Source: an uncultured Flavobacteriales bacterium
Lineage (GTDB): Bacteria > Bacteroidota > Bacteroidia > Flavobacteriales_D > Sanyastnellaceae
Assembly (NCBI GenBank): GCA_938085425.1
Contig: CALKGQ010000004.1
Span: 1 to 64,000, forward strand
Direction: 5' to 3'
DNA: 64,000 bases
The position numbers were made by a program, and so were the translations under genes. The notes under the pieces are model-generated. The model ran no database searches and was not told where the DNA came from. It worked only from the letters and a program-made list of their open reading frames with translations. The first letter of the stretch is position 1, and every line of letters starts with the position of its first letter. This document shows, piece after piece, positions 43,113-53,268 of the stretch.

Positions 43113-43134
43113 CGTTGAATGAAGGGTATTTTTG
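43109..43134 (+). promoter_or_regulatory. Candidate promoter of valS
   Basis: TTG (43109-43111), 15 bases, TATTTTTG (43127-43134), 24 bases before the ATG. The -7 box is an exact consensus. The spacer is short and the TTG is inside the terminator arm. Confidence 0.45.
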
Positions 43135-45789: not shown

Positions 45790-45840
45790 TTCTGTTGGCC
45801 CCGCGTCGAACACATGAGGTCACTCTGGTGTTGTGACGTC

Positions 45841-46014
45841 ATGTTTGGACTCTTCAAGAAAAATCCGGTCGAGAAGCTTCAAAAGGAGCATGCTGATTTG
45901 TTGGCACGTGCCCACAAGATGAGCTCAGTGGACCGCACCAAGTCTGACGCTTTGGTCGCCCAAGCGGCGGACATCGAGGCGCGCATTGTGGAACTGCAGG
46001 ACCAAGGGTCATGA
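45841..46014 (+). CDS. Lacal_2735 family small protein
   Basis: A 57-aa protein, FGLFKKNPVEKLQKEHADL onward, matching the pattern of the small helical Lacal_2735 family of Bacteroidota: FGLFKK start, then a charged helical hairpin. Function unknown. ATG 45841 is chosen over 45814 because the family begins here. Its stop overlaps the SDR start (ATGA), so it opens the photolyase operon. Confidence 0.75.
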   Translation: MFGLFKKNPVEKLQKEHADLLARAHKMSSVDRTKSDALVAQAADIEARIVELQDQGS

Positions 46015-46712
46015 GGACCATTGGCATCGTCGGAGACAGCCGTGGCATTGGAGCTGCGCTTCGGGAACAACTCCTCGCGCAGGGCCATCGCGTCATTGGT
46101 GTGTCGCGCTCAGGGGTCCAACGCGCCGCTGGAGACGCTGACAACTACCAAAGTTTGGTGTTTGATGCCGTCGCCCATCCATGCGATCTCAGCGGATTCA
46201 CCGACCAATTGGATGGACTGGTGTATTGCCCGGGGACGATCAAACTGAAGCCCCTACGCGGATTGAAACGCGAACAGTTTATGCAGGACTTTGAAATCAA
46301 TGTCCTTGGGGCGGTCCAAACCCTTCAAGCCAACCACGGCCTTTTGAAAAAGGGGGACCGTCCATCGGTGGTGATGTTCAGCACAGTGGCGGTGCAAACC
46401 GGGATGGCCTACCACGGAAGCGTGGCATCGTCAAAAGGTGCCGTCGAAGGCTTGACAAGGACCTTGGCGGCGGAATGGGCGCCCGACATTCGGGTGAATG
46501 CCGTGGCCCCAACCCTCACCGACACTGAATTGGCGTCGTCGTTCCTTGGCACCGATGCCAAACGTGAGGCTGCGGCAGAACGCAACCCTCTGAAGCGTGT
46601 TTTGTCTGCCGATGAGGTGGCGTCTACGGCTGCGTACTTGCTGGGAACGGGGGCGGCGGGAGTCACGGGTCAGGTCTGGAAAGTGGATGCAGGCACAAGT
46701 GCATTGAGATGA
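46011..46712 (+). CDS. SDR-family oxidoreductase lacking the catalytic Tyr
   Basis: A 233-aa Rossmann-fold protein. The cofactor loop reads GDSRGIGAAL (for TGXXXGIG), and the C-terminus RVNAVAPTLTDTELAS is typical. In the catalytic YXXXK motif the Tyr position is Val (VASSK in HGSVASSKGAVEG), so standard SDR chemistry is doubtful. I have seen the same change in related flavobacterial proteins. It is coupled by four-base overlaps to the genes on both sides and lies in the photolyase operon. Substrate unknown. Confidence 0.85.
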   Translation: MRTIGIVGDSRGIGAALREQLLAQGHRVIGVSRSGVQRAAGDADNYQSLVFDAVAHPCDLSGFTDQLDGLVYCPGTIKLKPLRGLKREQFMQDFEINVLGAVQTLQANHGLLKKGDRPSVVMFSTVAVQTGMAYHGSVASSKGAVEGLTRTLAAEWAPDIRVNAVAPTLTDTELASSFLGTDAKREAAAERNPLKRVLSADEVASTAAYLLGTGAAGVTGQVWKVDAGTSALR

Positions 46713-47407
46713 CCAAAATGGCCTCCTGGAGCCGAAAGGAATGGGAAGCCTGGCCTGCCCGCAAAAGGGCCCGTGCCATGAACAGCCTGAGTGGCTTCAA
46801 GAGCGCAACCCTTGTGGGGACTTTGGACACGGATGGAGTGCACAACCTGAGCATCGTCAGCTCCGTGGTTCATTTGGGGTCGAGCCCTGCGCAGATGGGC
46901 GTGGTCTTGCGCCCCCCCGGCGCGGATGCGCACACCTACAAAAACATCAAAGCCACAGGTCAATGCACCTTCAGTCATGTGCATGCCGATTGGTTGGAGA
47001 AAGCCCACCAGTGCAGCGCACGCTACCCAGCAGATGTCTCGGAGTTTGAGGAGGTGGGTCTGACCCCTTACAGGAAGACCATGGAGGGGGGGCGCGCAGC
47101 TTGGAAGGCCCCTGCTGTGGCAGAGGCCAGCATCCGCATGGGCCTGACCTTGGTAGAAGACATTGCGCTCCCCAACGGCTGCAGATTTTTGGTGCTCGCA
47201 GTGGAATGGGTGCAAGTGGAGGGGACAGCATGGCGAGGGGATGGGTACCTCGACATCGCGCAAGCAGGAACGGTGACCATCAGTGGTTTGGATGGCTACC
47301 ACAGGGCTGAATCTCTGGGCCGGTGGTCCTATGCCCAACCAGGTGTTGAGGTGCAAAGGTTGGAGGACGAACAAAGAGGTTGGAGAGACGAAGAATCCGC
47401 CCACTGA
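46709..47407 (+). CDS. Flavin reductase-like FMN-binding protein
   Basis: A 232-aa protein of the flavin reductase / split-barrel family: [50 protein letters not shown] and [12 protein letters not shown] are the recognisable blocks. It probably binds FMN and may supply reduced flavin. In this operon a link to the flavin-dependent photolyases is plausible but unproved. Its TGA overlaps the ATG of the photolyase gene by one base. Confidence 0.85.
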
Positions 47408-48942
47408 TGTCGGGCAGGGTTCATGTGGTTTGGTTCAAACGCGACCTGAGGACAAGGGACCACGCGCCTTTGGCCCAAGCCATGGAGGCCGCCAAACGGG
47501 CAGGTGAGCACGTGCTTTTGCTGCATGTGTTTGAGCCCATGCTGTTGGCGCATCCCACGACGTCGAGTCGTCACATCGCTTTTCAATGGACATGTTTGGA
47601 CGACATCTCTTCCATTCTAGAGGAAGAAGATTGGGGGCTGAAACTGCACAGGCTGTCTGCCGATGTGACGGAGGTGTTGTCCTACATCCATGAACACCGT
47701 GGCATCGCTGGGCTCTATTCGCATGAAGAAACTGGGGTGGAGGTCACCTACAAGCGAGACAAATTGGTCGCCAAGTGGTGCGAATCTCGAGGTATCGCAT
47801 GGCACGAAACCCCTCAGCTTGGGGTGCAACGCGGCCGAAAGAACCGCCGCGGATGGGTGCACCAATGGCATGTCAACATGTCCAAGCCTTTGGCCCAACC
47901 CAACTGGTCGGGGTGGCGTGCGGCAGCAGTGAACAGGACCGTGGATGCCGAATGGTCATGGCCCGAAGCTTGGCAGACAATCGTACCTCCCAAAGTGCGG
48001 CACGCAAACGATGTGCACGGCGAAGGTCCATTTCAACCTGGGGGCGAGCGCATGGCCCATCGCTATTTGCAGTCCTTTTTGGAGGAGGGGAGGATCCACT
48101 TGTACCAAAAACACATCAGCAAGCCCGAGCAAAGCCGGAGTTCTTGCAGCCGGCTCTCGCCTTTTTTTGCGTGGGGATGCATCAGTGTGCGGCAAGTGTT
48201 TCAGGCCCTCGAAAAGGAAAGTGGCCAAGGCCGAAACCACCATGCTTTTGGGAGCCGGTTGAGATGGCATTGTCATTTTGTCCAAAAGTTTGAGTCCGAG
48301 CACACCTTGGAGTGGAGCAACATGAACACGGCCTACGACGCCCTTGAGACCGCGCATTCTGGGGAGGCGGTCTCCCGATGGGAACAAGGCCAAACGGGGG
48401 TTCCTCTGGTGGATGCATGCATGCGGGCGGTGCGTGAAACGGGCTACCTCAACTTTCGAATGCGTGCCATGTTGGTCAGCTTTCTCACCCACCACATGAA
48501 CCACCGTTGGCAGGACGGGGTGGATCATTTGGCGCGGTGCTTTTTGGACTTTGATCCGGGCATCCACTACCCTCAGTTTCAAATGCAAGCGGGGGTCACC
48601 GGCATCCACACGGTCCGAATCTACAATCCGGTGAAGCAGGGCGAAGACCACGACCCCAACGGGGATTTCATCCGCCGCTGGGTGCCTGAGTTGAAGGAGG
48701 TGCCGGCAGCTTGGATCCACGCGCCGTGGACAGCACCTCCCATGGAAGCTGTGCTCGGCAACTGGCATGCAGAGGACTACCCCGACCCCATGATGGATCT
48801 TGCAGAGGCTGCGAGAGAGGCACGCGACAGGATGTGGTCGTTCAGGGAGCGCCCAGAAGTCAAGGCGCAAGGCCGCCGGATTCTTGCGCAACATGTTGTG
48901 CCGCCCCGCACCCAAACCAAAGGACGAATGCGCGAACTTTGA
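47407..48942 (+). CDS. Photolyase / cryptochrome family flavoprotein (first of three)
   Basis: A 511-aa protein with the N-terminal alpha/beta antenna domain ([15 protein letters not shown], about 1-135) and C-terminal FAD domain (about 210-500). The FAD-binding [18 protein letters not shown] and [13 protein letters not shown] are present, as is a [21 protein letters not shown] block. It fits the bacterial cryptochrome / class I-like CPD photolyase group, either a light-driven DNA repair enzyme or a blue-light receptor; the two cannot be separated without structure-level comparison. Starts one base into the previous stop, five bases before the next gene. Confidence 0.88.
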
Positions 48943-48947
48943 CAACG

Positions 48948-49820
48948 ATGGAAACCACTTCGAACACCCCTGACATGCTGCACTACGAAATCGTAGGAGA
49001 CAACAGCGAGGCGCCTTGGATGATCTTCATTCACGGTGCTGGAGGGTCCATCCGCACGTGGAAGTTCCAAACGGCTGCGTTTGCACCACATTTCAGGTTG
49101 CTTTTGCTCGATCTCAGGGACCATGGGGAGAGCAAGGACATCCTTCCGGAATTCCAGTCGTACGACTTCGACATTGTGGCCCAAGACATTCTTGCTGTTG
49201 TGGACCACCTTGGCATTGAAAAGGCCCACTTTGTGAGCTTGAGCATTGGCAGCGTGATCCTACAGAAAATCGACATTCTTCGTCCCGAGCTGGTGGACCG
49301 AATGGTGATGGCTGGGGCCATTTTTGACGGAAGCTGGGTCATGCACATGTTCGTGAACAGCGTCAGAATTTTGAACCATGTGATGCCGTTCAAGGCCATT
49401 TATTGGATGTTCTCATTCATCGTTCTCCCCCGACGCAACCACCGTGCGAGTCGCTGGATTTTTAGAAGGCAAAGCCAGAAATTGACACAAGGGGAGTACC
49501 TCAAATGGGTGGAACTTTACAAGCCCTTTTTCAAGTTGGTGCAACAGTATTTGCGGCGTCCCGTGGGCCGACCCTCCCTTGTGGTGATGGGCGACCAGGA
49601 CCACATCTTCTTCAAGGCAGCCCAACAATTCGCGGATTTGCAGCGGAACGTCCACATGGCAGTGATTGAGAATTGCGGGCACGTGTGCAGCATTGAGGCG
49701 CCCGATCTGTTCAATGACTTGGTGCTCAAGTTTTTGAAGGGGCAGGAATATCCCGATCGTGTGACGGCCACGCCTGTGCCCATGTCTTGGGCAGAGTTGA
49801 AGCAATGGAAGCCAGGCTGA
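48948..49820 (+). CDS. Alpha/beta hydrolase within the photolyase operon
   Basis: A 290-aa soluble alpha/beta-hydrolase: [12 protein letters not shown] oxyanion loop, [11 protein letters not shown], nucleophile elbow VSLSIGSV, Asp in GDQDHIFF and His in [11 protein letters not shown] complete the triad. A basic middle segment ([14 protein letters not shown]) may be a cap. Family members include esterases and peroxidases; the substrate is unknown. Packed between two photolyase genes and DUF2256. ATG 48948 follows the photolyase stop by five bases. Confidence 0.85.
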
Positions 49821-49833
49821 ACCCTTTCTCCGG

Positions 49834-49977
49834 ATGCCTCACAAAAAACCTCACCTGCCCCAAAAAATCTGTGTGACGTGTGGCTTGCCATTTTCATGGC
49901 GCAAGAAGTGGGAAAAGAATTGGGAGGAGGTTCGTTATTGCGGTGAGCGGTGTCGACGTTCTCGCGACAAAACTTAA
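49834..49977 (+). CDS. DUF2256 zinc-ribbon protein
   Basis: A 47-aa protein, too short for most gene callers: start [19 protein letters not shown], then [19 protein letters not shown] and RRSRDKT. Four cysteines, C13-x2-C16 and C36-x3-C40, form a likely zinc site. I recognise it as DUF2256, which in many genomes lies beside photolyase/cryptochrome genes, as it does here on both sides. Function unknown. 13 bases after the hydrolase and 27 before the next photolyase. Confidence 0.88.
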
Positions 49978-50004
49978 AGGCCTCCCAGATGTTGTTTGGG
50001 CGTC

Positions 50005-51573
50005 ATGCCTGCACCTTCAAGTTCCCCCCATGCGCCAGCGCGCACGCTTCGATTGCTTCTCGGTGACCAGTTGAACGCCAAGCACAGTTGGTGGAAAGAC
50101 GTGGACGAGGATGTGTTGACGGTCATGGTGGAGTGCCGCCAAGAGACGGACTATGCGCAACACCACGTGCAGAAAGTGTTGTCCTTTTTTCTGGCCATGC
50201 GGCACTTTGCGCAAGAACGTCAGCAAGAAGGCCATCGCCTGGTGTATGTGTCCATTGCCCATCCCGATGCGCAGCGGCCCATGTTGGAAGTGGTGCACGA
50301 TCGCCTGAAGGCATGTGGTGCCCAAGCCTTCGCGTACCAAAGCCCAGACGAATGGCGGTTGGACGAATTGATTCGGACAAAGACTGCCGATTGGGCTGTC
50401 GAGGTGACGGAGGCGGACACGGAACATTTTCTGACACAGCGCGGGGACCTCGCCCAACACTTCGAAGGAAAGAAACAGTACTTGATGGAATCCTTCTACC
50501 GCATGATGCGCAAGCGTCATGACGTCTTGCTCGACGCTGGAGGGCAGCCAGAAGGAGGCAAGTGGAATTACGACGCGAACAACCGAAAGAAATTGCCCAA
50601 GGGCCATGTTCCCCCTGCCCCCAAGCTTTGGGAAAAGGATGTGACGGCCCTGCGTGATGAGCTCGATGCCGCTGGAGTGAAGACCGTGGGCAGGACATCT
50701 TGGACGGCCTTTGGTTGGCCCGTTTCAAGGGCTGAAGGGCTCGAGCTGTTGTCCTTGTTTGTCGAGGAGTTGCTTCCGCGTTTTGGCGATTTCCAAGATG
50801 CTTTGACCGAAGACAGTTGGACGGTGTACCACAGTCGTTTGAGTTTTGTGATGAATGTGAAGTTGTTGCATCCCAGGGAAGTCATCGGGGCCGTGGAGCA
50901 GAAGTGGAGGGAAAATCCAGGACACGCCAGTGTCGAGCAGGTGGAGGGGTTCATCCGACAAATTTTGGGTTGGCGAGAGTACATGCGCGGGGTGTATTGG
51001 GCGCACATGCCCTCGTACGCCTCAATGAATTTCTTTGGCCACGAACGAAAATTGCCCGGGTGGTATTGGACGGGAAAGACGGGCATGAGGTGCCTTCAAC
51101 ACGCCATAGGACAAACCCTTGACCACGCCTACGCTCACCACATCCAGCGTTTGATGGTGACAGGCAATTTTGCCTTGCTTGCAGGCATCGATCCCGCCGA
51201 GGTGGATGCCTGGTACCTGGGGGTGTACATCGACGCCATCGAATGGGTGGAAATGCCCAATGCCAGGGGGATGAGTCAATTCGCAGACGGAGGGATTGTG
51301 GGCACCAAGCCCTATGTGTCATCCGCCAACTACATCCACAAGATGGGTCCCCATTGCGGGGCATGTCGTTACAACAGGACAGGGAAGACGGAGCCAGATG
51401 CTTGCCCTTTCAACAGTTTGTACTGGCATTTCCATGCCACCAACCGGTCGCTTTTGGAGCGCAATCCACGCATAGGCATGGTCTACCGAACCTGGGACAA
51501 GATGACACCTGAAAAACAGCAAGCTCTTTTGGACCGCGGGGACCATGTCCTCGACAACCTTGAAACCCTTTGA
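50005..51573 (+). CDS. FeS-containing (6-4)-type photolyase (FeS-BCP, CryPro class)
   Basis: A 522-aa member of the bacterial FeS-BCP group, whose best-studied protein is the (6-4) photolyase PhrB of Agrobacterium. It starts RTLRLLLGDQLNAKHSWW, typical of the group rather than the FKRDLR start of other photolyases. Four cysteines fit the [4Fe-4S] site: Cys363, Cys451, Cys454 and Cys467 (TGMRCLQH, GPHCGACRYN, DACPFN). WGWREYMRGVYW-like and MVTGNFALLAG belong to the FAD domain. Probably repairs (6-4) pyrimidine dimers with light. ATG 50005 is preferred to TTG 49996. Confidence 0.92.
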   Translation: MPAPSSSPHAPARTLRLLLGDQLNAKHSWWKDVDEDVLTVMVECRQETDYAQHHVQKVLSFFLAMRHFAQERQQEGHRLVYVSIAHPDAQRPMLEVVHDRLKACGAQAFAYQSPDEWRLDELIRTKTADWAVEVTEADTEHFLTQRGDLAQHFEGKKQYLMESFYRMMRKRHDVLLDAGGQPEGGKWNYDANNRKKLPKGHVPPAPKLWEKDVTALRDELDAAGVKTVGRTSWTAFGWPVSRAEGLELLSLFVEELLPRFGDFQDALTEDSWTVYHSRLSFVMNVKLLHPREVIGAVEQKWRENPGHASVEQVEGFIRQILGWREYMRGVYWAHMPSYASMNFFGHERKLPGWYWTGKTGMRCLQHAIGQTLDHAYAHHIQRLMVTGNFALLAGIDPAEVDAWYLGVYIDAIEWVEMPNARGMSQFADGGIVGTKPYVSSANYIHKMGPHCGACRYNRTGKTEPDACPFNSLYWHFHATNRSLLERNPRIGMVYRTWDKMTPEKQQALLDRGDHVLDNLETL

Positions 51574-51575
51574 CC

Positions 51576-52895
51576 ATGCCTTCGATTCACTGGTTCCGCA
51601 ACGATTTGCGTTTGGACGACAACCCAGCATTGCAAGAGGCACTGGAGGACGGAGAGGTGCTTCCGGTCTTTGTCTTGGATCCGCGCTTGTGGGGCGAGGA
51701 CCGATGGGGACATGTGAAAACGGGTCCCTTCCGGACGCAATTTCGATGGGAAAGTCTCCAAGATTTGCGCTCGGAGCTGGAGGCCAGAGGGGGAGCGCTA
51801 CTGATCCGAGAAGGGCTGCCTGAAGAGGTGTTGCCAGCCTTGATGAAGGAACATGGATGCGGACGGGTTACGGCACAAGCGGAGCACACCCCGGAGGAAC
51901 TGGAGGTGGAGCGCTTGGTGATCCGGGCAGTCGAAGCGGTTGGAGGGGCATGCGCCTGGGTGGAAGGATTGACGCTGTATCACCCTGAAGATTTGCCCAT
52001 GCCGCTTGGCTCCTTGCCCGACATCTTCACCCAGTTCAGGAAGAAGATGGAAAAAGGAAGCGAAGTGCGGGAGCCGTTGCCTGCACCTTTGAAGGTTCCT
52101 TCTCCGAAAGGGGTGGCTTCTGACAATCTGCCAAGCTTGCAAGGCTTTTTGGAGCGCCACGGGATGTTGATGCCTGTGGCAGATTCCCGGGCGGTCCTGC
52201 CTTTCCAAGGTGGGGCCTCTGCCGCACGCGCCCGGCTCAAGCATTATTTCTGGGACTCCAAACGCCTGGCCGTTTACAAGAAGACCCGCAATGGATTGGT
52301 GGGCGCAGATTACAGCAGCAAGTTCAGTCCTTGGCTCGCCAATGGCTGCATCAGTGCGCGTCGCATCGCGAGTGAAGTTCGTCGTTTTGAAAGGGAAGTG
52401 GAATCCAATGACAGCACGTATTGGTTGGTGTTTGAGTTGATTTGGAGGGACTATTTCCGGTTTGTGGCCATGAAGTATGGCGCGAAGATGTTCCACCGAA
52501 AGGCACTGAAGCCAGACAGTCCCAACAGGGGCACCCAACGCCATCCTTTTGAGGCTTGGAAGGAAGGCCGAACCCAAGATGCCTTTGTCAACGCGAACAT
52601 GCGGGAGTTGTCTCAGACGGGGTTCATGAGCAACCGCGGGCGCCAAAATGTGGCCTCTTACCTGGTCCATGACCTCGGCATTGATTGGCGGCTCGGAGCA
52701 TCTTGGTTCGAGCACATGCTCCTCGACCACGATCCGGCAAGCAACACTGGCAATTGGATTTATGTGGCGGGGGTGGGCAATGATCCAAGGCCCAACCGAT
52801 CCTTCAACACGAAACGGCAGGCAGAGATGTACGACGCAAATGGAACTTACCAAACCTTGTGGAGCACCCATGCTATGGAACTTGACATACGCTGA
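51576..52895 (+). CDS. DASH-type cryptochrome
   Basis: A 439-aa CRY-DASH: SIHWFRNDLRLDDNPAL start, RGGALLIREGLPEEVLP antenna part, then the FAD domain with GADYSSKFSPWLANGCIS, WLVFELIWRDYFRF, NANMRELSQTGFMSNRGRQ and HMLLDHDPASNTGNW. CRY-DASH proteins repair CPD lesions in single-stranded or looped DNA and may signal. Starts two bases after the FeS-BCP stop. Its last 26 bases overlap the next gene. Confidence 0.93.
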   Translation: MPSIHWFRNDLRLDDNPALQEALEDGEVLPVFVLDPRLWGEDRWGHVKTGPFRTQFRWESLQDLRSELEARGGALLIREGLPEEVLPALMKEHGCGRVTAQAEHTPEELEVERLVIRAVEAVGGACAWVEGLTLYHPEDLPMPLGSLPDIFTQFRKKMEKGSEVREPLPAPLKVPSPKGVASDNLPSLQGFLERHGMLMPVADSRAVLPFQGGASAARARLKHYFWDSKRLAVYKKTRNGLVGADYSSKFSPWLANGCISARRIASEVRRFEREVESNDSTYWLVFELIWRDYFRFVAMKYGAKMFHRKALKPDSPNRGTQRHPFEAWKEGRTQDAFVNANMRELSQTGFMSNRGRQNVASYLVHDLGIDWRLGASWFEHMLLDHDPASNTGNWIYVAGVGNDPRPNRSFNTKRQAEMYDANGTYQTLWSTHAMELDIR

Positions 52896-53268
52896 TCCTC
52901 GCCGTTGGAGAGAGGTGTACGCCATTTCAGGCAAGCCCTTGCCGTGGTGGAAAAAAACGGGCAGCCCTCGGCTTCGGCTGGTGGATGGTCCCGGAGAAAT
53001 CAAGAGCCTTCTCGAGGCCACCTCGGATGTGAAGTGGTCCAACCTTCAACGGACAACATCTGGGGCCATTCTCTACTTCCGGGTGCGCTTGGAAGTGTAT
53101 GGGATGCCCTGGTCGAGGAAGGAGGTGACATGGGGTGTTGAACCGCGCGAGGGAGGTGCCGTGGTTTGGGTGAAAAGGGCAGATGCGGAAGTGAAACTGG
53201 TGCCCCAAAATGGCCATGTCCATGCCCTGGAGGCTTTCTTTCAAGATGCATTTGGGCCCAAGAGTTGA
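52870..53268 (+). CDS. Unknown protein coupled to CRY-DASH
   Basis: A 132-aa protein starting inside the cryptochrome gene (LWNLTYADPRRWREVYA). Cytosolic, with a Trp-rich N-terminus and a beta-rich middle (GAILYFRVRLEVYGMP, AVVWVKRADAEVKL). I do not recognise the family. It is the last gene of the tightly packed photolyase operon, which suggests it belongs to the same pathway. Confidence 0.6.
   Translation: MLWNLTYADPRRWREVYAISGKPLPWWKKTGSPRLRLVDGPGEIKSLLEATSDVKWSNLQRTTSGAILYFRVRLEVYGMPWSRKEVTWGVEPREGGAVVWVKRADAEVKLVPQNGHVHALEAFFQDAFGPKS

Follow-up and report, generated by a model that had tools for sequence, protein, structure and literature searches.

The contig CALKGQ010000004.1 of an uncultured Flavobacteriales bacterium (assembly GCA_938085425.1) contains, in the stretch analysed here (positions 1 to 64,000 of the forward strand, 64,000 nt, referred to as the window), a block of nine genes preceded by a promoter-like motif. 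As a preliminary description of this DNA had stated, the nine open reading frames (ORFs) are tightly packed on one strand: all are on the + strand within 45841–53268, and neighbouring ORFs overlap or lie no more than 18 nt apart. The family labels proposed earlier were backed by Pfam and NCBIfam scans, leaving only the last gene, a 132-aa protein with no match in either database at 0.1, without a family. A nine-gene operon encoding three different photolyase-family proteins is a real observation, and its features are as follows.

45808..45834, +, promoter-like motif: GAAC at 45808–45811, N17, TGTT at 45829–45832, then 8 nt to the ATG at 45841
45841..46014, +, gene 1: Lacal_2735/DUF6435 small protein (Lacal), 57 aa; NF033487, 64.5 bits against a cut-off of 32
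46011..46712, +, gene 2: protein with the fold of short-chain dehydrogenases/reductases (SDR); PF13561; V138 in place of the catalytic Tyr, Thr in place of Ser, Lys142 kept
46709..47407, +, gene 3: flavin reductase-like split-barrel protein; PF01613; solved relative 3fge
47407..48942, +, gene 4: photolyase/cryptochrome PHR1; DNA_photolyase and FAD_binding_7 domains
48948..49820, +, gene 5: alpha/beta hydrolase; PF00561; Ser99-Asp218-His245
49834..49977, +, gene 6: DUF2256 protein, 47 aa, with four Cys, zinc-finger-like; PF10013, 78.9 bits
49970..49993, +, possible internal promoter: AAAC-N16-TGTT, 11 nt 5' of the ATG at 50005
49996..51573, +, gene 7: prokaryotic (6-4) photolyase FeS-BCP; PF04244 (DPRP), 227.7 bits; start maybe at ATG 50005
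51570..52895, +, gene 8: CRY-DASH (DASH); TIGR02765, 506.1 bits against a cut-off of 317.05; start maybe at ATG 51576
52870..53268, +, gene 9: 132-aa protein whose start overlaps the end of DASH; probable PH/PTB-like fold

For PHR1 the likeliest start is ATG 47407, which gives a one-base overlap with the flavin reductase stop, with TTG 47380 as a possibility; FeS-BCP and DASH likewise have alternative TTG and ATG starts. A fourth photolyase, which is class I-like (P0009), is encoded elsewhere in the genome and is split over the ends of contigs C30 and C43.

Conservation of the operon in relatives

In 6 of 10 genomes of the same genus (G001–G003 and G008–G010), a single contig carries all nine genes in this order. 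Contig ends cut the block in three others (G004, G005 and G006), in which the examined pieces agree, the comparison for G004 and G006 leaving out their front pieces. G007 lacks PHR1, and its contig ends in DASH, so that the last gene is out of view. This conserved order is more than chance. The gene maps of relatives were built by tblastn because greedy ORF calling had labelled antisense frames in GC-rich loci. Named loci reaching far enough have valS 5' of the block and mostly a peroxiredoxin gene (on the other strand) and ppk on its 3' side. Most of the named relatives are Flavobacteriales genomes from metagenomes, many of them marine going by the isolate names, and relatives of the hydrolase were found in Saprospiraceae too.

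In other genera the block appears as two modules: a front half with Lacal, the SDR, the flavin reductase and often PHR1, and a rear half with DUF2256, FeS-BCP, DASH and often the terminal protein, the hydrolase lying between them. PHR1 is absent from four loci (L091, L097, L100 and L111) that keep the SDR and the flavin reductase. A gene of about 250 aa resembling an outer-membrane protein is inserted between the hydrolase and DUF2256 in L084 and L102, and in L141, L142, L152 and L189 katG lies on the opposite strand directly before the hydrolase. In the three of these loci that reach that far, katG sits between the flavin reductase and the hydrolase, the place held by PHR1 elsewhere.

The promoter-like motif and the genes that carry it

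The motif GAAC-N16/17-TGTT was found 5' of gene 1 in 38 of 44 related loci, compared with 0.34 expected from letter shuffles, and was not found before gene 1 in L157 or in the Saprospiraceae loci L194 and L199–L202. It starts 32 or 33 nt 5' of the start codon in nearly all 38 loci; in L156 it lies 36 nt before the tblastn start. A pattern scan of 267 loci (2.29 Mb), in which an ATG within 3–15 nt on the 3' side and an ORF of at least 40 aa were required, gave 86 sites. Fifty-six distinct sites were located exactly 8 nt 5' of the ATG of an island gene: Lacal (39), DUF2256 (12), DUF2805 (2), PHR1 (1), a DASH-like photolyase (1) and a (6-4) photolyase homologue without cysteines (1). The remaining 30 preceded other ORFs (22), FeS-BCP (4, at 11 nt), the hydrolase (2), the SDR (1) and valS (1). 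Control patterns gave 7 (backwards), 15 (swapped), 11 (letter-altered) and 8 and 13 (wrongly spaced) matches in the same loci, and none of these five altered patterns occurred 8 nt before island genes, a few being found there at other distances.

With a weight matrix trained on 54 sites, 35 of 11118 ATG ORFs scored above 10.5. All of the 13 matches listed lay before island genes or repeat targets, ten of them with the exact pattern; the picks outside the training set without an exact match preceded a (6-4) photolyase homologue lacking cysteines (L215), DUF2256 (L229) and a membrane protein look-alike (L242). The base immediately before the ATG, which was not part of the pattern, was C in 73 and T in 16 of 91 grouped distinct sites, and C or T in 25 of 33 single sites. 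At DUF2256 this base was C in 11 of 12 motif-bearing cases, against 17 of 41 for the others. A pyrimidine at this position fits transcription starting at the A of the ATG, as supporting evidence only.

DUF2256 offers a comparison between joined and split loci. Of the 18 distinct loci in which DUF2256 lies more than 300 nt from the upstream hydrolase, 11 have the motif before it; where it comes immediately after the hydrolase, the count is 0 of 18. A possible internal element before FeS-BCP is present in the AAAC form in the window and in the GAAC form in four genomes of the same genus (L025–L028).

A sigma-70 scan gave 2 sites (shuffle mean 3.5), and perfect TAnnTTTG occurs 6 times in the window (shuffle mean 11). 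The element, as seen in the 38 loci, fits a scheme of the extracytoplasmic function (ECF) type, with an AAC-containing -35 and a GTT-/CGT-type -10 about 16–17 nt apart, the class being assigned by likeness to ECF consensus sequences. It does not match the ECF11 promoter TGATC-N16-18-CGTAW. Its geometry reads as a -35/-10 pair of a promoter for an alternative, ECF-like sigma factor, with a putative transcript start at the ATG.

Scanning 30 genomes with the full pattern, including the ATG, gave 52 sites in the genus (11 genomes) and 56 in 8 other genomes of the family, against 12 and 23, respectively, for the backwards pattern, a control that does not keep the start codon. In the window's own genome, 4 of 5 sites precede genes that have the motif in relatives too, namely the operon, uvrA, a CIA30 protein and a membrane protein. 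The last (L253, 1533–2396, on contig C18) has 288 aa and no Pfam match, and a near match to the motif occurs before it in another genus. Downstream genes were read from the fetched loci and grouped by BLAST, with names checked against Pfam/NCBIfam for one or two members per named group; the group sizes are not frequencies, because most small-group loci were fetched as pattern matches, and sister species do not supply independent sites. The motif stands before uvrA in 9 of the 11 genus genomes and in G013, before CIA30 in 6 genomes, before an SRPBCC-like protein (named by eye; no Pfam match for the two tested) in 5, before the membrane protein in 4 genus genomes, before a TIGR01777 oxidoreductase followed by a class I-like photolyase in 3, before a TonB receptor in 3, and before msrA and a cupredoxin/fasciclin protein in 2 each. 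Single cases in the family are folE, hemH, squalene/phytoene synthase, glutathione peroxidase and a neighbouring FAD oxidoreductase (CrtI-like by eye). In relatives the motif also precedes some detached photolyases. In locus L226 a gene for a rhodopsin-like protein (by eye), close to DUF2256 and to a photolyase-like match, begins with GTG and has the motif 9 nt upstream of this codon. A rhodopsin search of the window's own genome gave no match, and neither did its controls.

The proteins encoded by the operon

Judged by their sequences, FeS-BCP and DASH are ordinary family members. The closest solved chain to FeS-BCP, 7ykn/8a1h, aligns over near full length (E 3e-165). DASH matches 1np7 with an E value of 6e-127, and all 47 readable distinct rows keep its Glu289, Asn355, Trp373 and Trp396.

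PHR1 matched five NCBIfam photolyase-class models (class I, 8-HDF, plant CRY, class II and DASH), all below their cut-offs. Its residue columns were set by alignment to the solved DASH 1np7; seven rows of less than 38% identity (DASH-like cross-matches) and identical or contained proteins were left out, and L125, which has an ambiguous base, stands outside the structure alignment. We take the columns to correspond to E. coli positions 274, 378 and 382. The lesion-binding Glu position is Arg in 27 of 27 readable distinct rows, and in 29 of 29 the flavin-facing Asn position is His, the proximal electron-chain Trp position is Phe, Ile, Leu or Met, and one further position is Met. On this alignment, PHR1 belongs to a clade in which the residues usual for lesion binding, flavin contact and electron transfer are missing. 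The Arg, His and Met are common to five plasmid-borne relatives from Vibrio, Pseudoalteromonas, Salinivibrio, Tritonibacter and Deinococcus. DUF2256 follows the PHR1-type gene in Salinivibrio and Tritonibacter, and the gene directly after it in Vibrio pelagius encodes a flavin reductase 45% identical to that of the window (P0003). Because this adjacency recurs in V. pelagius, the flavin reductase and PHR1 may work together. On plasmid P2 of Deinococcus gobiensis (L207) the PHR1-type match overlaps an annotated uracil-DNA glycosylase, which may reflect a gene fusion or a faulty annotation.

The SDR departs from the classical signature (Ser, Tyr-xxx-Lys): its catalytic Tyr is replaced by Ile or Val in 46 of 46 distinct rows, the catalytic Ser is Thr in 43 of 46, and Lys is kept in all 46. 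Because of the Tyr replacement, it is unlikely to be an ordinary carbonyl reductase.

DUF2256 had been noted earlier as a frequent neighbour of photolyase genes, and this association proved strong. Among 60 genomes it is present in 43 of the 45 that have a homologue of the (6-4) photolyase family (P0006) and in 1 of the 15 that do not, the two exceptions being G005, whose contig ends there, and G046. In named control genomes, DUF2256 was matched in Caulobacter and Synechococcus elongatus, and PF04244 in both of these and in Haloferax. The four DUF2256 cysteines are kept in 47 of 47 distinct sequences. The four cysteines for the iron–sulfur (FeS) cluster are present in the window's FeS-BCP and in 25 of 44 homologue rows; 18 rows (17 genomes, 31–38% identity) have none of the four, showing gaps or different residues in each of these columns, and one row is a fragment that does not reach them. 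DUF2256 lies directly beside homologues without these cysteines in eight loci (L211, L213, L214, L217, L218, L219, L221 and L222) and within 1 kb of one in L234. The FeS-loading part of the earlier proposal for DUF2256 was rejected: despite the strong co-occurrence with the family, FeS loading is unlikely because DUF2256 also adjoins members lacking all four FeS cysteines. By its distribution, DUF2256 is linked to the (6-4) photolyase family and not to the FeS cluster.

The hydrolase had been suggested to serve the photolyase cofactors. Eighty named hydrolase loci divide into 40 with PHR1, FeS-BCP or DASH and 40 without, and the 56 loci of at least 10 kb into 33 with and 23 without photolyase genes; in L162–L168 and L170 nothing but the hydrolase separates valS from the peroxiredoxin gene. 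Whole genomes were searched for 20 of the 40 photolyase-free loci, with PF03441 matches in 17 and PF04244 matches in 15; neither was found in 3 of the 20, where genome incompleteness could hide genes. Lacal adjoins the hydrolase without photolyases in four Saprospiraceae loci (L199–L202). All 38 aligned sequences share the Ser-Asp-His residues. A phmmer search for solved relatives gave none at 1e-15, and a structure search returned generic alpha/beta hydrolases (CumD, enol-lactonase, esterases). A photolyase helper was accordingly dropped as the main role of the hydrolase, given its occurrence without photolyases and its generic fold matches. Since it is found in photolyase-free loci, it would belong to the chromosomal place rather than to the photolyases, and perhaps to Lacal. 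In L112 and L113, from two genera of another family, a hydrolase homologue is found inside a larger light island with DASH, thiol peroxidase-like, CrtZ-like, lycopene cyclase-like, DUF2805, hydrolase, TetR, ABC1 kinase and FeS-BCP genes (several named by eye).

The terminal protein, described earlier as an unexpected member, is encoded after DASH in 30 of the 32 named DASH loci, and the remaining two stop at a contig end; in eight loci of more distant relatives (L099, L101 and L112–L117) it is missing from this place. Homologues occur in 20 of 60 genomes. The AlphaFold model (pLDDT 93.5, pTM 0.86) has helices, a run of six antiparallel strands and a C-terminal helix. VIA-align gave Z 9.8 with the TIAM1 entry 1foe (119 residues, rmsd 3.5); its 50 rows are for the most part PH, PTB or related domains, going by their titles or known classification, and include two bacterial PH domains. 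In Foldseek the best E value was only 0.017, with SsgB and retinoid-binding proteins also in the list. The fold is probably PH/PTB-like.

A candidate light/UV-protection regulon and its relation to known systems

The conserved promoter-like motif, recurring before other photoprotection genes, supports the earlier view of the operon as one co-regulated unit with a light/UV theme. We consider the operon to be probably the largest known unit of a light/UV-protection regulon driven by an ECF-like sigma factor in this family of Flavobacteriales. Transcription would start at, or within a few nt of, the ATG of gene 1 from GAAC-N16/17-TGTTnT, read by an alternative ECF-like sigma factor that would be freed by light, UV or photo-oxidative stress. 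The transcript would yield three photolyase-family flavoproteins, namely FeS-BCP, presumably for 6-4 products, CRY-DASH, presumably for cyclobutane pyrimidine dimers in single strands, and PHR1. It would also yield the flavin reductase as a likely co-worker of PHR1 and DUF2256 as a putative partner of the (6-4) photolyase, and the hydrolase, as a gene of the chromosomal place, would be carried along.

Besides the loss of the start codon in the backwards control and the limits on the group counts, several observations weigh against this reading. The motif is missing before DUF2256 in 7 of the 18 split loci, including three from the window's own genus (L127, L128 and L130), and in 25 of 27 loci without an upstream hydrolase in the locus (2 of 27 have it). 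A pyrimidine before the ATG is frequent in some motif-less genes as well (20 of 26 for FeS-BCP and 28 of 47 for the SDR, but 10 of 49 for the flavin reductase). The 11 genomes of other families showed no excess (32 sites, 47 backwards), and the tspO, ispH and class I-like photolyase (L300) sites come from these families. The folate, haem and other single-case targets could be due to chance, and the examined stretches of the window's genus showed no motif ahead of the class I photolyase or its operon.

The motif might instead be an operator at which a regulator responsive to light or stress (LitR/CarH, LexA-like or other) acts as activator or repressor, which we regard as unlikely. GAACAC and GTGTTG form an imperfect inverted repeat in the window, and one related cluster (L115) encodes a LitR-like MerR protein (by eye). 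In Pseudomonas, LitR controls phrB, ufaM, folE, cryB and an SDR gene in the same region (PMC9758184). However, the symmetry is mostly not kept, because the right half is TGTTG in 55% of the grouped sites and TGTTC in only 24%, and the 8-nt distance to the ATG, the 16/17-nt spacing and the pyrimidine at -1 are core-promoter features. Read-through from valS by the housekeeping sigma factor, with the cluster merely a conserved neighbourhood, appears still less probable: valS is on the same strand and ends 51 nt 5' of gene 1, and the sole perfect TAnnTTTG from 34.2 kb to the end of the window, at 43127, precedes valS, but the motif persists where valS is divergent (L132–L134 and L136) and occurs before DUF2256 mainly where the unit is split.

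Two further readings concern the proteins, and both seem doubtful to us. The preliminary description held that the SDR, the reductase and the hydrolase make flavin or antenna cofactors or keep them reduced, with DUF2256 loading FeS. The recurrence of the flavin reductase beside a PHR1-type gene in Vibrio favours the flavin-supply part, and an SDR without Tyr could still serve flavin because hydride transfer to flavin needs no proton donor; biliverdin reductase B is presumably an example. Against this reading, the hydrolase is kept without photolyases, DUF2256 adjoins the cysteine-less relatives, and four loci keep the SDR and the reductase without PHR1. The other, a bolder extension of the sigma-factor reading and somewhat unlikely in its full form, is that this family has a dedicated ECF sigma factor answering light or UV, whose regulon would consist of leaderless mRNAs (for several photolyase types, uvrA, folE, hemH, carotenoid genes and methionine sulphoxide reductase), and that PHR1 and the SDR, both without their canonical catalytic residues, would form with the flavin reductase a light-dependent redox or sensing unit rather than a DNA repair enzyme.

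Bacteroidota are common in sunlit coastal water. The motif bears on whether one regulator connects the photolyases with uvrA and with genes for folate, haem and carotenoids, and the PHR1 clade without the usual repair residues, together with the Tyr-less SDR, poses questions of enzymology.

Among known systems, the prokaryotic 6-4 photolyases (7ykn/8a1h) resemble the window's FeS-BCP, which aligns near full length and keeps the four Cys; the window gene differs in lying in a nine-gene unit, and the order has homologues without these Cys. The light-controlled LitR/CarH units of Pseudomonas contain photolyase, SDR, folE and oxidoreductase genes (PMC9758184); photolyase and SDR genes occur together in both, but the regulator there is of the MerR type, whereas the element here has the shape of a leaderless ECF promoter. 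In Proteobacteria, two reports (PMC6852236, PMC5241685) tie the ECF11 system SigmaE-ChrR to photo-oxidative stress, describe photolyase/cryptochrome operons of Vibrio cholerae induced by blue light and, by the title of a cited work, make phrA of Rhodobacter sigmaE-dependent. The ECF11 motif given for V. cholerae in PMC5241685 is TGATC-N16-18-CGTAW, in contrast to GAAC-N16/17-TGTT here. The promoter map of Flavobacterium psychrophilum, from the same phylum, has six motifs, including the ECF-type SM6 with a CGT box (PMC9723704); an ECF-type motif is inferred in both cases, but no GAAC/TGTT motif was found in the accessible part of that source, and the word "photolyase" is absent from its main text. 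A photolyase-like flavoprotein group that tracks proteorhodopsin in flavobacteria (PMC2668756) is likewise a distinct group linked to flavobacterial light biology, differing in that no operon, promoter or residue analysis was found in the part of the source available. Among the papers listed by searches of mostly open-access literature, we found no description of a GAAC/TGTT photolyase regulon in Bacteroidota, nor any counterpart there to the light and photo-oxidative regulons (LitR, ECF11) described in Proteobacteria, and the shared promoter-like signal suggests a light/UV-protection programme so far undescribed in this group.

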